64,000 bases of DNA from Natrinema mahii (GTDB lineage Archaea > Halobacteriota > Halobacteria > Halobacteriales > Natrialbaceae). Under the pieces are notes generated by a model that ran no database searches, had not been told where the DNA came from, and worked only from the letters and a program-made list of their open reading frames with translations. How positions within the stretch are numbered: position 1 is the stretch's first letter; every line of letters begins with the position of its first letter. Below are positions 45,045-51,711 of the stretch, piece by piece. The stretch spans positions 1 to 64,000 of the forward strand of contig JHUT02000008.1 of the NCBI GenBank assembly GCA_000690595.2, in the 5' to 3' direction. The position numbers were made by a program, and so were the translations under genes.

Positions 45045-45899
45045 ATGAGCAACGAGACCGAGGCCGACCGCGACGGCGGTGAGTCCGGGGACTCGCTGTC
45101 GATCGCGCTCGCACAGATTCGCGTCGAGGCGGGCGAGGTCGAGGCCAACGTCGACCGCGCGCTGGCGGCGATCGCTCGCGCCGCCGACCGCGGCGCGGAC
45201 CTCGTGGCCCTGCCGGAACTGTTCTCCGTGGGCTACTTCGCGTTCGACCTCTACGCGCGCACCGCCGAGCCGTTCGCGGGCGAGACGTTCGGCCGGCTCC
45301 GCGAGGCTGCAGCCGACCACGGCGTCGCCATCCTCGCGGGGACCATCGTCGAGGATCTCGCCGCGACCGACAGCGTCCCGACGCCGGCCGACGACGGGCT
45401 GGCGAACACCGCCGCGCTGTTCGATTCCGACGGCGACCTGCGACTGGTCTACCGGAAACACCATCTCTTTGGCTACGAGTCGGCCGAATCCGAACTGCTG
45501 GTCCCCGGCGAGCGCCTCGAGACGGCGACGATCGGCGGCCTGACCGTCGGCGTGACGACCTGTTACGACCTGCGGTTCCCGGAACTCTACCGGCGGCTGG
45601 TCGACGACGGCGTCGAGTTGGTGCTGGTCCCCAGCGCGTGGCCCTACCCCCGCATCGAACACTGGCAGACGCTCTCGCGGGCCCGCGCCATCGAGAACCA
45701 GGCCTACGTCGCGACGATCAACGGAGCCGGCGAGTTCGACGACGCGACCTTGCTCGGGCGCTCGAGCGTCTACGATCCCTGGGGCGTCGCGCTTTCCTCG
45801 AGCGGGGACGAGCCGGCGCTGGTCACGGCCGAGATCGATCCGGCGACGGTCGCGTCGGTCCGCGAGGAGTTCCCCGCGTTGCGGGACCGACGGCTGTGA
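45045..45899 (+). CDS. Carbon-nitrogen hydrolase (nitrilase superfamily)
   Basis: A 284-residue amidohydrolase of the nitrilase/omega-amidase type. The Glu-Lys-Cys triad sits in LVALPELFSVGYF, YRKHHLFGYE and VGVTTCYDLRFPELYR. Substrate groups such as omega-amidase or N-carbamoyl hydrolase cannot be decided. ATG 45045 is used; 27 bp after the SRPBCC stop. Confidence 0.9.
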   Translation: MSNETEADRDGGESGDSLSIALAQIRVEAGEVEANVDRALAAIARAADRGADLVALPELFSVGYFAFDLYARTAEPFAGETFGRLREAAADHGVAILAGTIVEDLAATDSVPTPADDGLANTAALFDSDGDLRLVYRKHHLFGYESAESELLVPGERLETATIGGLTVGVTTCYDLRFPELYRRLVDDGVELVLVPSAWPYPRIEHWQTLSRARAIENQAYVATINGAGEFDDATLLGRSSVYDPWGVALSSSGDEPALVTAEIDPATVASVREEFPALRDRRL

Positions 45900-46420
45900 C
45901 GGGGCTGGACCAGCGGCTGTAACGGGCCCGGACCGACGACCGTGACCGCAGGCCGGACACGGGTTCGCCGACCGCTGACTTTTTACTTTCCCACGCCATT
46001 TGTTTGGCTGCCGGCACAGACGCTTTTCACGTCTACCCGGCATTGCGCGTCGCTCCGGCCCGTCGCGCGCTCGGGTCCCGGGGCCCGAGCGTTACACCGC
46101 GCCCGCCTCCTCGTCCACCCTTTCGCCTCTCGCTTTCAGCCCGATCGCTTGGAAGCAACGTCTCGAGGTCAAATATCGTACTCGCGAGAGGGCCGTGAAT
46201 TATCGGAGTTGAATCGCCCGAGCGGAACGGAGCGTCCTGCTACCGTGGCTGCAGTGAGTAGCCACGCCCTCCCCAGCCGATTCGTTCGTTCCCTCCGGTC
46301 ACTCACTCATCCCTCGCGCAGCGTCGTCGATCCGCCCTCACTGTCGTTCGGACGGATAAACAGCGCGCGCCACCGCGGGCGAACGGCCAGTTCGGAACGA
46401 GCGGCTGCGACCCGGTCGAG
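45900..46420. other. Gene-poor region with dispersed repeat copy
   Basis: The 521-bp stretch has open frames without haloarchaeal protein features. It carries one copy of a repeat (46223-46288) that recurs inverted at 50553-50618, and the surrounding TCACTCATCCCTCGC-like sequence. No gene or RNA could be supported. Confidence 0.5.
46223..46288 (+). repeat. Dispersed repeat, copy A
   Basis: CGGAACGGAGCGTCCTGCTA followed by CGTGGCTGCAGTGAGTAGCC and ACGCCCTCCCCAGCCGATTC: a 66-bp unit almost repeated, inverted, at 50553-50618. CGTGGCT and AGCCACG can form a 7-bp stem around a 9-nt loop. The centre CACGCCCTCCCCA is the best conserved part. Confidence 0.6.
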
Positions 46421-47179
46421 TCAGAACGGGAAGCCGCCGTAGCGCAGGTACACCATATCGAGGATGAGAAGCAACTGAAAAACACCCTGGACGCCGCCGA
46501 GCATCGCGTTTTGCTTGCCGATCCCGGCGATGATCGACGGATCGGGTTCGGCCGAGCGCATCTCGCGATACATCCGGATCTCGCCGGGCAACAGGAAGCC
46601 AAAACCCTGTACCGAGAGGACCGTGACGAGGACAAGCGCCACCGCGACGGTCGGTTCGGTCATCGCGAAGCCGTCGATCGTCAGGGCGACCCAAGCCAGC
46701 GAGCCGACCGTCGCGACGGCGAATGGAATCTGCCAGCGGCGGTCGTCCCAGGCGTCCAATCGCCAGCCCAGCAGGAGCAGGATCGGAATCAGGTTCACCG
46801 CGGTAAACAGCGCTAGCCACGCGTCGGCGTGGGGAAAGAGCCCGATCCGCTGGGCCAGCGTGATCCCGCCCGCGATGGTGACAAAGGCCAACGACGGGAG
46901 CAGAAACGCCGTCTTCGGCGTGAGCCGCTGGAACACCGCCGAACTCTCCTCGTCGTCCAAGCCGCCGATGACCGGGCCGAGGACCGCACCCATGAAGACG
47001 TCGATCCCCGTCCAGAGAACCCCCGCCATCACGTGTACGTAGGTATGTTGCTGGACCGTCGCGACCGTCACCGCATAGCCCAGCGCGGCCAGCGGAATCA
47101 GTATCACCGCGACCGCGAAGGCCGGATTCGCTCGCTGCCCCATCCCCCTGATCGTACCGCGAACCGTCGCCGTCGACAT
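46421..47179 (-). CDS. Integral membrane protein, about eight hydrophobic segments
   Basis: A 252-residue membrane protein. His residues in the segment TYVHVMAGVLWTGIDVFMGA and the GPVIGGLDDEESSAVFQRLTPKT loop resemble CopD-/DUF2269-like membrane proteins that may bind heme or metal, but the match is weak. ATG 47179 is followed by basic residues and the first helix. No operon partner; it is downstream of the nucleotidyltransferase in the same direction with 100 bp between. Confidence 0.7.
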   Translation of the reverse strand: MSTATVRGTIRGMGQRANPAFAVAVILIPLAALGYAVTVATVQQHTYVHVMAGVLWTGIDVFMGAVLGPVIGGLDDEESSAVFQRLTPKTAFLLPSLAFVTIAGGITLAQRIGLFPHADAWLALFTAVNLIPILLLLGWRLDAWDDRRWQIPFAVATVGSLAWVALTIDGFAMTEPTVAVALVLVTVLSVQGFGFLLPGEIRMYREMRSAEPDPSIIAGIGKQNAMLGGVQGVFQLLLILDMVYLRYGGFPF

Positions 47180-47281
47180 GTGCGGGAGAAATCACTAATC
47201 CCCCATAAACGATGTTGCCGACGCAACGCTGTCCGAGGGGGTAGCCGCCGCGTCGACGCGCGACTCGAGCGCGCCGCCGGA

Positions 47282-48472
47282 CTACCGATCGCGCTCGACC
47301 GTTTCCCCGGGCCGCGTGGTCGCGCCGCCCGCGAGTTTCAGCCCCGGCGTGAGGCTCGTGTTGATGCCGGTCTTGACGCCGTCGCCGGCGACGACGCCGA
47401 ACTTCCGGCGGCCAGTCGAGACGCGCTCCCCCTTGACGGTGAACCGGATATCGGCGTCGTCGTGGCGCAGGTTGGCGACGTTCGTCCCCGCGCCGACGTT
47501 GACGTTTCGCCCGAGGACGCTGTCGCCGACGTAGGAGAGGTGGCTAACCGAGGTGCCCCGGGAGACGACGCTGTTTTTCACTTCGACCGCGTGCCCGATT
47601 TCGGCGTCCCGGCCGATCAGCGTCGCGCCGCGGACGTAGGCGTTGGGTCCCACTTCGGCACCCTCGCGGATCAGTGCCGGCCCTTCGATCACGACGCCCG
47701 GCTCGACCGTCGCACCGTCCTCGACGACGACCGATCCCTCGAGGGTGGCGTCGTCGCTCACGTCGCCGTCGATCCGGCGCTCGAGGGCGGCGAGTTTCCA
47801 CTCGTTGGCCTCAAGCAGTTCCCACGGGCGGCCGACGTCGAGCCACCGCTCCAAGGTGATCGGCGTCACGTCGAACGCCTCGATCACCCGCGCGACGACG
47901 TCGGTGATCTCGTGTTCGCCCCGTTCGCTGGCGGGGACCTCGAGCCACTCGCGCGCTTCGGCGGGGAAGGCGTAGGCCCCGGCGTTGGCGAGGTTCGTCG
48001 GCGGCTCGGCGGGCTTCTCGACGATCTCGGTGACGCGACCGTCGTGGCCGGGCTCGGTACTCAAGACGCCGTAGTTGGACGGCTCCGCGACCTCGATGGC
48101 ACAGACGGCCGGACAGGCGTCGAACAGCCGGTCGATCGCCGCCGGATCGTAGAGGTTGTCGCCGTTGAGGACGGCGAAGGGGCCCTCGAGGTGGTCTCGA
48201 GCGGCGTTGACGGCGTCGGCGGTCCCGGCCTGTCGCTCCTGAACGGCGTAGGAGACGGGGACGCCGCGGTACTCGGGGCCGAAGTAGTCCCGGACGGTCT
48301 CGCCCTCGTAGCCGATCACGAGGACGATCTCGTCGGCACCGGCCTCGATCGCCGCGTCGACAGTGTGTGCCGCGAGCGGGCGGTCCGCAACCGGCAGCAT
48401 CGGCTTCGGCACCGATTCCGACAGCGGTCGCATTCGCGTTCCTTGACCCGCCGCAAGAACGACAGCCTTCAT
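47282..48472 (-). CDS. Bifunctional sugar-1-phosphate nucleotidyltransferase / acyltransferase-like protein
   Basis: A 396-residue protein: N-terminal nucleotidyltransferase (VVLAAGQGTRMRPLSESVPK, residues 4-23; FAVLNGDNLYDPA) and a C-terminal left-handed beta-helix (repeats such as SVVVEDGATVEPGVVIEGPAL). Archaeal homologues activate glucosamine- or glucose-1-phosphate and acetylate it for surface glycans. ATG 48472 fits the domain; upstream in-frame codons do not. The exact sugar is not determined. Confidence 0.88.
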   Translation of the reverse strand: MKAVVLAAGQGTRMRPLSESVPKPMLPVADRPLAAHTVDAAIEAGADEIVLVIGYEGETVRDYFGPEYRGVPVSYAVQERQAGTADAVNAARDHLEGPFAVLNGDNLYDPAAIDRLFDACPAVCAIEVAEPSNYGVLSTEPGHDGRVTEIVEKPAEPPTNLANAGAYAFPAEAREWLEVPASERGEHEITDVVARVIEAFDVTPITLERWLDVGRPWELLEANEWKLAALERRIDGDVSDDATLEGSVVVEDGATVEPGVVIEGPALIREGAEVGPNAYVRGATLIGRDAEIGHAVEVKNSVVSRGTSVSHLSYVGDSVLGRNVNVGAGTNVANLRHDDADIRFTVKGERVSTGRRKFGVVAGDGVKTGINTSLTPGLKLAGGATTRPGETVERDR

Positions 48473-48606
48473 GTCCGGCCCTTCAATGAATCCCCGGATA
48501 AGCGATTCGTTCGCGAGTAGAATCTGAGACGCAAGCCGGTCGTTGATAGGGCGGGGAGTCGGAACGGGGCCCCAGCCGCACCGGGGACCCATTACAGCGA
48601 ACCGGC

Positions 48607-50139
48607 TCAGTCCTCGGAAGTCTTGATATCGGCCGACAGCCCCTGTGCCATCTCGATCTCGTCGGCGTTGTTCATCGTCCAGGCGGTGCGTTCGGTGACG
48701 GCTTCGATCGCCTCGCGGGCGCTCGGGTAGCCGTTGCCGGATTTCTTGACGCCGCCAAACGGCAACTGGACCTCCGCGCCGATACACGGCAGGTTCGCGT
48801 ACGCGAGTCCGATATCGGCGTGGTCGCGGAAGTAGTTGAGTTGGCGGTAGTCCTCCGAGATGATCGCTCCCGCCAGCCCGTAGGGCGTATCGTTGTGGAT
48901 CTCGACTGCATCCTCGATATCACCCGAGTACTCGAGCAAGGCGACGTGGGGGCCGAAACACTCCTCGTTGAGACAGCGCAGGTCCGACTCGTAGTCGATC
49001 TCGTAGACGAAGGGGCCGACCCAGTGGCCCTCCGCGTGGCCCTCGGGGATCTCCTCGGCCTCGAGTTCGAATCGGTCGACGAGGACGTTCGCGCCCTCCT
49101 CGCGCGCCAGTTCGTTGTGCCGGCGGATCTTCTCGACGTGGTCGGCCTCGATCGCCGGCCCCATGAACGTCGACTCCTCAAGCGGGTCGCCGACGGCGAT
49201 CGATTCCGCGACGTCGACGAACCGTTCCTTGAACTCCTCGTAGACCTCTTCGTGGACGATCAGGCGCTCGGAGGAGACACAGCGCTGGCCGGTCGTCTTG
49301 AAGCTGGACATGACCGCGGAGTGAACCGCGGTGTCCATATCCGCGTGTTCCGTGACGACGATCCCGTTCTTGCCGCCCATCTCGCAGGCCGCGAGCTTGC
49401 CGGGTTCGCCGCCGACTTTGTCGGCGATTCCGTGGCCGACCTCGGCCGAACCGGTAAAGAGGACGGTGTCGACGCGCTCGTCGTCGGTGATCGCCGCGCC
49501 GGCGTCGCCAAAGCCTTGGACCATATTGAAGACGCCGTCGGGAATCCCGCTGTCCTCGAACATCTCGGCGATGATCTGGGCACACCACGGCGTCTGTTCG
49601 GCGGGCTTCCAGACGACCGTGTTGCCCTCGACCAGTGCGATGGCCATGTGCCAGAACGGGATCGCGACCGGGAAGTTCCACGGCGTGATACAGCCGACGA
49701 CGCCCCGGGGCTTGCGCCGCATGTAGGAGTCCTTGCCCGCGACCTCCGAGGGGACGACATCGCCGTGGGGATGGCGCGCGTTGCCCGCCGCCCACTCGAC
49801 CATGTGCCAGGCCTCGGTCACGTCCGCCTTTCCTTCCGAAATCTCCTTGCCGCACTCCTTGGTGACGATCTCCCCGAGTTCCTCGTGGCGGTCCCGAAGC
49901 TCGTGGTAGATGTCCCACAGGTACTCCGCCCGATCGATGTAGGACAGCTCGCGCCACTCCTCGAAGGCCTCGTCCGCCGCCTCGAGCGCCCGATCGACCT
50001 CGGCCGCCGTGCCTCGCCGGAACGTCGCCAGCGTCTCGCCGGTCGCGGGGTTCTCGCTCGCGAAGGTATCGCCCGAGCCCTCCGTCCACTCGCCGCCGAT
50101 GTAGTGGCCGTGTACCTGTTCAGTGGCTTGCTGGCTCAT
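48607..50139 (-). CDS. Aldehyde dehydrogenase family protein (NAD(P)-dependent)
   Basis: A 510-residue ALDH. Catalytic Cys in TGQRCVSSERLIVHE, the catalytic Glu in AACEMGGKNGIV, and NAD-binding TGSAEVGHGIADKVGG are all seen, plus the C-terminal PFGGVKKSGNGYPSA. It may be a 2,5-dioxovalerate- or glyceraldehyde-type ALDH; substrate unknown. ATG 50139. It is 135 bp from the nucleotidyltransferase, with which it is unlikely to be functionally linked. Confidence 0.9.
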   Translation of the reverse strand: MSQQATEQVHGHYIGGEWTEGSGDTFASENPATGETLATFRRGTAAEVDRALEAADEAFEEWRELSYIDRAEYLWDIYHELRDRHEELGEIVTKECGKEISEGKADVTEAWHMVEWAAGNARHPHGDVVPSEVAGKDSYMRRKPRGVVGCITPWNFPVAIPFWHMAIALVEGNTVVWKPAEQTPWCAQIIAEMFEDSGIPDGVFNMVQGFGDAGAAITDDERVDTVLFTGSAEVGHGIADKVGGEPGKLAACEMGGKNGIVVTEHADMDTAVHSAVMSSFKTTGQRCVSSERLIVHEEVYEEFKERFVDVAESIAVGDPLEESTFMGPAIEADHVEKIRRHNELAREEGANVLVDRFELEAEEIPEGHAEGHWVGPFVYEIDYESDLRCLNEECFGPHVALLEYSGDIEDAVEIHNDTPYGLAGAIISEDYRQLNYFRDHADIGLAYANLPCIGAEVQLPFGGVKKSGNGYPSAREAIEAVTERTAWTMNNADEIEMAQGLSADIKTSED

Positions 50140-50901
50140 ACCACTGCCTACGACCGGCGCGGCCAAAATCCTGCTGGTTGTTCACATGCAACGAGTCGAT
50201 CGTGGGCTTTTCGAGCGAAAACAGCGGCTACCGTCGACTCGAGCCCGCTCTCAGCCGACGGACTGACAATCGCTCGTATCGGTGGCAGTCTCGTTTCACC
50301 CTGATCATCCGCCCTGCAGTGGCGCGCGCTGTCGGCCGTCCGAGCCAAGCGAGGCCGGCCGTCGATACCGTGCGAGGTCTTCGCGAACGGAGTGAGCGAA
50401 CGGCTCGGAAGACGCTCCGCGTCTTCCGGTGGATGAGCGAGCGAACGAAGTGAGAGAGCGTTAGCGCGGAACCGGCGGTTCCGCGAACGGGCAGTGGGTG
50501 GCGCGACGCGCCGCGACTGTCGGGACGGCTGCGTCGTCCCGTGGCGCCCGTGAGCAGCAATCGGTTGGGGAGGGCGTGATCACTCCGTGTTGCCACGATA
50601 GCAGGCCGCTTCGTTCCGGTCCGCCGACTCGAGTACGGCGCTCGAAGACGGAGTCGTCTATCGGTCCGCTTCCTCGCCGCGCTCCTCGGTGACGGTCCGT
50701 TCCCTTCCGGTGGCGCGTCCGCCATGTCCGGGTGCGCTCCGCACCGGCCTCCGTCATCCCCTCGTCCGAGCCGAGGGCTCGAGGCCCTCACCGGTCCGTC
50801 CTTCCTGGGTGACTCGTTTCAACAGCGACGATAGCGCGACGCCCGGAAAACCCCATCGTGCCTGCAGCCGCCTGTGGTCGGGGCGGGACCGGCCCTTGCC
50901 G
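50140..50901. other. Gene-poor region with dispersed repeat copy
   Basis: 762 bp without a credible gene. Parts read GAACGGAGTGAGCGAACGG and GAACGAAGTGAGAGAGCG near 50385-50460, echoing TCACTCACTC in 46300s, and the inverted repeat copy at 50553-50618 lies in the middle. An open frame on the minus strand across it is Arg/Ser-rich and shows only shadow features. Confidence 0.5.
50553..50618 (-). repeat. Dispersed repeat, copy B (inverted relative to copy A)
   Basis: On the minus strand this reads CGGAACGAAGCGGCCTGCTA, CGTGGCAACACGGAGTGATC, ACGCCCTCCCCAACCGATTG: the same frame of conserved words as copy A at 46223. The stem is weaker here (CGTG/CACG only). It lies in the 762-bp gap between the ALDH and RIO-like genes. 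Confidence 0.6.
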
Positions 50902-51711
50902 TCACGCCCCGCCTAACTCGGCCGCCTTCTCGAGTTCGCTGCGCAGCGTCGTCGAGTCGAACTCGTGGTCGGGCCGGAGCCGGACGAAATCCAGAAACTC
51001 CCGCGCGGCGAGCAAGGTGTCGGGTCCGTAGGCCGTTGCAGCGGCGTCGACGGCCGCTCGAGGCCCGATCCGGGGCTCGAGGACCGCGAGCGCACAGGCC
51101 AGATCGTAGGCGGTCGTCTCGTCGACGCGGTCGTCGTGGACGCTGGTCGCGTCGATGAAATAAAAGTCATCGTCACACAGCAGGATGTTCTCGGCCCGCA
51201 AATCGCCGTGGGCCAGCCCGTGGTCGTGCAGCGTCGCGAGCATGGCGAACAGTTCCGGCGCGCGCTCGGCGACGGCGTCGTCGGCCACGTCGTCGAGCGA
51301 CCGGAACTCCGGGAGGTACTCGAGGACGAGGACGCCCAGCCCGTTGACCTCGAAGGCGTCGATCGGCTGGGGGGCGTTGATACCGATCTCACGCATCCGG
51401 AGCGTGGCCTCGTACTCGTGTTCGACCATCTCTCGAGGGGTGTCGAACCGATCGAAAAAGCCCTCGGTACCGGAGGAGAACGCGCCGACGTTCCGGCCGG
51501 TCGTCAACACCGCATGCACCAGCGCGTTCTGCCGGGAGACGATCTTGACGAACCACTCGTCGTCGATCACGCAGGGCGTCGACAGCCAGTTGTCCGCCTC
51601 GAGGAACTCGACGCGGACCGACTCGCGGTCGTAGCGATCCGCCAGCGTGCGGACGACACGCTCGATGCGGCTCCACTCGACGGTCCCTCGTGCGAGCCGG
51701 CGGATGTCCAT
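50902..51711 (-). CDS. RIO/Bud32-like serine/threonine protein kinase
   Basis: A 269-residue kinase-like protein. Lys of the ATP site is in DEWFVKIVSRQ (residues about 51-60), the catalytic loop is LAHGDLRAENILLCDDD and the metal-binding Asp is in FYFIDATS (replacing DFG, as in RIO/Bud32-type kinases). The N-terminal ~45 residues form an extra helical region. Archaeal RIO kinases act in ribosome assembly; this one is divergent and target unknown. It is divergent from the 51838 gene. Confidence 0.85.
   Translation of the reverse strand: MDIRRLARGTVEWSRIERVVRTLADRYDRESVRVEFLEADNWLSTPCVIDDEWFVKIVSRQNALVHAVLTTGRNVGAFSSGTEGFFDRFDTPREMVEHEYEATLRMREIGINAPQPIDAFEVNGLGVLVLEYLPEFRSLDDVADDAVAERAPELFAMLATLHDHGLAHGDLRAENILLCDDDFYFIDATSVHDDRVDETTAYDLACALAVLEPRIGPRAAVDAAATAYGPDTLLAAREFLDFVRLRPDHEFDSTTLRSELEKAAELGGA

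Follow-up and report, generated by a model that had tools for sequence, protein, structure and literature searches.

The inverted pair of repeats in the window (the whole 64,000-nucleotide stretch of Natrinema mahii DNA analysed here) was found to belong to a family of dispersed, intergenic elements whose conserved core of about 147 nt carries a covarying single-strand fold. Within one genus the copy number of this element swings widely, and at orthologous sites its interior differs between species. These elements are probably non-autonomous, transposase-free dispersed repeats of one haloarchaeal order, similar to REPINs and SMRs, which would be moved by a factor acting in trans.

The initial annotation had placed an inverted pair of a hairpin-bearing repeat at 46223-46288 and 50553-50618. 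This pair is real and corresponds to the longest inverted repeat of the window (46204-46282 and 50559-50637; 79 nt, 77% complementary). The 66-bp unit described there does recur throughout the genome but is too short, as it forms the 5' part of the core or of a long form of about 300 nt (Table 1), and flank alignment of the own-genome copies showed the unit to continue past 66 bp. Copy 1 lies in a convergent gap, where the flanking genes were called to end at 45899 (+) and 46421 (-). Copy 2 has the same ends as copy 1 and is flanked by genes at 48607-50139 (-) and 50902-51711 (-); the G028 genome carries a short form at this site. The description of both gaps as otherwise empty has to be modified for the second one, where the stretch 50640-50840 appears to be left over from a gene for a small acidic protein (C-terminus ...TVTEERGEEEDR), which has a longer form in the relative G004. 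Copy 2 sits just past the 3' end of this remnant.

Table 1. Coordinates of the two element copies in the window and of their parts
Feature	Position	Strand	Remarks
Element copy 1, short-form core of ~147 nt	46231..46379	+	matched by R1 at 145.2 bits, E 2.6e-36
Closing helix P1, 5' arm	46238..46249	+	TGC 46238-46240, GTGGC 46245-46249
Most conserved block CACGCCCTCCCCAGCCGATT (opposite strand AATCGGCTGGGGAGGGCGTG)	46263..46282	+	kept across families
Hairpin P2	46279..46311	+	2-bp covarying steps with TC/TC between; tandem G.A mismatches on minus strand
Hairpin P3	46325..46362 (limits approximate)	+	strong covariation; different sequences at orthologous sites
Closing helix P1, 3' arm	46369..46377	+	GCCAC ... 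GCG
Element copy 2, long form of ~300 nt	about 50315..50610	-	full span; matched by R1 in two parts, 50610-50535 and 50411-50324
Extra hairpin modules nested in copy 2, such as GCGGAACCGCCGGTTCCGC	50412..50558	-	missing from short forms

Long forms such as copy 2 contain extra hairpins nested within the element. Near-perfect hairpin modules of the GCGGAACC..GGTTCCGC and GGGACGGC..GCCGTCCC types were observed in the long form of the window and in those at L018, L045 and L036. These modules are common to distant sites and may represent a separate nested repeat.

Genome-wide searches of the 3.79-Mb own assembly confirmed the proposal of a dispersed repeat, with the unit found at 44-46 places. The 20-mer CACGCCCTCCCCANCCGATT occurs 44 times at up to two mismatches, as compared with zero occurrences of a reversed control pattern, and blastn with a 97-bp query gave 46 places. 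The covariance model R1 gave 56 matches at E<=1, which correspond to about 45 elements because long forms are split into two R1 matches each. The own-genome copies are divergent among themselves. The relatives of this assembly are Natrinema, among them N. thermotolerans, N. zhouii and N. salsiterrestre. In 28 other Natrinema genomes, 0-104 matches per genome were found at E<=1e-4, where four genomes have none, five have one or two and the top ones have 86-104. Matches are patchily distributed over the order, occurring in 65 of the 146 genomes and 30 of the 56 genera sampled; per-genome counts in this sample come from up to 21 listed matches and are to be read as "at least". In other families the core is preserved and the outer sequence is different. 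No matches were found outside this one haloarchaeal order in a phylum-wide sample, nor in phage records and IMG/VR, and the only plasmid records with matches are seven haloarchaeal ones. Another dispersed repeat, about 87 bp long and matching itself on both strands, was also noticed (L192 1627-1712 and 11239-11324, on G000:C4); it has many matches in G004, G006, G008 and G028 and is by position unrelated to the folded-repeat family. In G009 (L094, about 1650-1800), a short tandem repeat with a unit like CTACTGGGACTGTGTGGGGCTGGTT adjoins an element copy.

On the strand read by the initial annotation, the core runs in the order AGCGTCCTGCTATCGTGGCAACA...CACGCCCTCCCCARCCGATT, P2, TCATCCCTCGCRCA, P3 and CAGCGCGCGCCACCGCA. 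The stem CGTGGCT/AGCCACG that had been suggested was not borne out, since its pairing is no better than column composition predicts, with one double change in 26 copies. Covariance modelling, which had been recommended as a check, revealed very strong covariation in P2 and P3, both within the genus and across families. As an example, compensatory changes were observed at 11 of the 12 pairs of P3 among the 26 own copies, and RNAalifold further predicts P2, in which the 2-bp steps change together. The covariation score of 104 matches, most of which come from relatives, was 0.382 as compared with 0.139 +/- 0.005 after shuffling and at most 0.055 after sliding, and across families it was 0.426 versus 0.121; both alignments were fitted to the model structure, so that the counts lean towards it, and the copies share kinship, so that the shuffle comparison is no probability. 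Alignment A1, made with MAFFT and free of any fitting to the model, already displays the covariation, and when all column pairs are scanned, the same pairs come out first. Helix P1 was found to be mostly invariant or to show one-sided changes, with its outer pair varying with compensation across families. The copies are thus neither few nor devoid of covariation, the outcome that the initial annotation had set against its own proposal. No match to the element was found with the Rfam 15 covariance models, the one sub-threshold match being located off the element.

The strand that folds is indicated by the internal composition of P2. Copy 1 was written on the plus strand, where TC is present on both sides between the 2-bp steps. 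Across 58 copies, which include other families, the outer two TC/TC positions hardly vary, and the surrounding pairs co-change. On the opposite strand these positions become tandem G.A mismatches in a YGAR context, and tandem G.A mismatches in this context form stable sheared pairs. In addition, hairpin cells that break Watson-Crick pairing, when read on the opposite strand, were observed to be of the G.T type in 63 cases and of the A.C type in 25, counts that come from related copies and are hence non-independent. RNA folding of the opposite strand alone regenerates the P2 ladder; with DNA folding parameters P3 is recovered and the ladder is absent. Because of the G.A steps, the excess of G.T-type cells and the ladder obtained by RNA folding, the minus strand of copy 1 is likely to be the one that folds, as RNA or single-stranded DNA alike.

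No overlap with called genes was found in 120 copies, using an in-house codon-usage caller that was checked on the window. Single copies are enriched in convergent gaps (32 of 67, as compared with 53 of 288 gaps; p 2e-6), avoid divergent gaps (4 of 67; p 2e-4) and show no orientation bias in tandem-gene gaps (12 versus 19; p 0.28), where the sample size is overstated in these tests as some copies are orthologous. The flanking genes are ordinary ones with no recurrent neighbour, no Pfam family being present in more than three of the 104 genes considered. Most copies in the own genome are single, and the remainder include eight close pairs, all of them head-to-head and 31-169 bp apart.

The site of copy 1 is also occupied in G006, G004, G028 (a long form), G036, G010, G026 and G027, and the element is missing there in G035, G034, G030, G008 and G002. 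Between G000 and G004 the flanks of this site are 90-94% identical and P3 is 74% identical. At a second site, compared between G000 and G028, one flank is 95% identical and P3 only 56%, and both hairpins still fold. The interiors are thus exchanged or fast-evolving, with pairing retained. Many copies occupy orthologous places in related species and therefore do not demonstrate recent movement. No clean empty site was found, the flanks being too diverged or rearranged to define the ends of the element.

Of the three explanations offered by the initial annotation, the selfish element is the best supported because of the copy-number swings, the exclusively intergenic positions, the avoidance of divergent gaps, the lack of a partner gene and the head-to-head pairs. 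The structured-RNA option is borne out in so far as a covarying single-strand fold exists, but this fold is made of other hairpins on the opposite strand and may be one of RNA or of single-stranded DNA. A structured non-coding RNA from the folding strand, which would act in trans or on the 3' ends of mRNAs and which the host would maintain in many copies, could account for the strong covariation, for the tandem G.A steps with a G.U-over-A.C preference on one strand, for the ladder regenerated by RNA folding and for a core that is conserved between families when the outer sequence is not. A host function would likewise agree with a core that is kept from one family to another. We nevertheless judge such an RNA to be unlikely, as some relatives have 0-2 copies, a cis-acting mRNA element would be expected to show an orientation bias in tandem-gene gaps, the copies lack a neighbour gene in common and the fold energy of copy 1 barely beats that of shuffles (z -1.5). 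A double-stranded chromosome-organising or protein-binding site would fit the dispersed, intergenic and highly conserved block. This explanation is highly improbable because the number of copies ranges from 0-2 in some Natrinema species to about 100 in others, and the covariation and the TC-opposite-TC positions fit a folded strand rather than a dyad-symmetric duplex.

A classical MITE of about 250 bp, in which a DDE transposase would recognise CGTTCRATAG-like terminal inverted repeats and the folded core would be cargo, appears less probable than the RNA. Its ends are suggested by a CGTTCRATAG-like motif which clusters 57-66 nt before the core in 12 of 91 copies, with controls being scattered, and which occurs inverted 45-50 nt after the core in eight copies. 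In better-preserved copies this weak inverted end motif keeps fixed distances, about 60 nt ahead of the core and 48 nt past it, which may point to a unit of some 250 bp; the outer sequences are also partly conserved in high-copy genomes. However, both ends are jointly convincing in few copies only, and the ends vary between families whereas the core is kept. Long terminal inverted repeats showed no excess over shuffled partners, a control that retains any shared consensus, and no target-site duplication beyond that of permuted pairs was found at the core ends, where the test was placed, the true ends being uncertain.

Under the preferred reading of a transposase-free mobile repeat, the conserved core would be the fold of one single strand, opposite to the one read by the initial annotation, in the order closing helix P1, P3, segment GCGAGGGATGA, P2 with its G.A-separated 2-bp steps and segment AATCGGYTGGGGAGGGYGTGG. 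A factor supplied in trans would recognise this fold, as single-stranded DNA or RNA, and would copy or move the element into intergenic gaps, with selection removing those insertions that land in genes and promoters. The head-to-head pairs are possibly one form of the moving unit. Among candidate movers, a Y1/RAYT transposase was rejected, as PF01797 is absent from G000, G005, G007, G027, G030 and G036, which have 26-104 matches, and so was a reverse-transcriptase route, as RVT_1 is absent from all 29 of the 29 Natrinema genomes searched. The element may have a lost or unrecognised enzyme.

The closest known systems are the REP/BIME/REPIN repeats of bacteria, with their GTAG and CGTC families (PMC3116915, PMC3733652), and the small mobile repeats SMR-A and SMR-B of Haloquadratum (PMC3119063). 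The former are likewise dispersed, intergenic, palindromic, unevenly distributed between species and often paired head-to-head, the CGTC REPs being also without an assigned transposase, and REPIN-type inverted doublets of the element are present in the own genome. However, they are single palindromes of 20-40 bp, whereas the element has a core of ~147 nt with two hairpins, a closing helix, a G.A ladder and conserved single-strand blocks; a short GTAG- or CGTC-tagged palindrome does not define its unit, though in many copies P1 is preceded by CGTC. GTAG REPs accompany RAYT genes, and several high-copy genomes of the element are without a Y1 transposase. The SMRs are also haloarchaeal, short (80-110 bp) and transposase-free, with no target duplication and an unexplained mobilisation. 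By their description, they have prominent terminal inverted repeats, show more than 95% similarity between copies and insert into other mobile elements; the present element is set apart from this description by ends that are weak at most, divergent copies and ordinary intergenic sites. Palindrome-associated elements (PATEs; PMC3119063) and IS200/IS605 ends share palindromes and the lack of both target duplication and an own transposase gene, but PATE palindromes match IS605-type transposon ends and no such link was found here. MITEs are similarly short, non-coding and multi-copy, and differ in that no target duplication was found at the core ends of the element and its inverted ends are weak at most. 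The element therefore resembles REPINs or SMRs and is filed as neither, since it lacks the RAYT association, the short palindrome and the homogeneous copies.

In the literature searched, in which few subscription papers were covered, no description of the sequence or of such a family was found. It is possible, and we put it forward tentatively, that this is an order-wide, so far undescribed class of single-strand element in haloarchaea, and that a conserved haloarchaeal factor reads its G.A-ladder hairpin; it would be either a new kind of mobile repeat that spreads with no recognisable transposase or a widespread structured RNA domesticated from such a repeat. It would be a large archaeal family of folded dispersed repeats with a structure conserved across the families of one order and no identifiable transposase. 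The G.A-ladder hairpin would provide a concrete bait for the factor that moves or reads the element, and the question of the mover is one that would be shared with the CGTC REPs and the SMRs of Haloquadratum.
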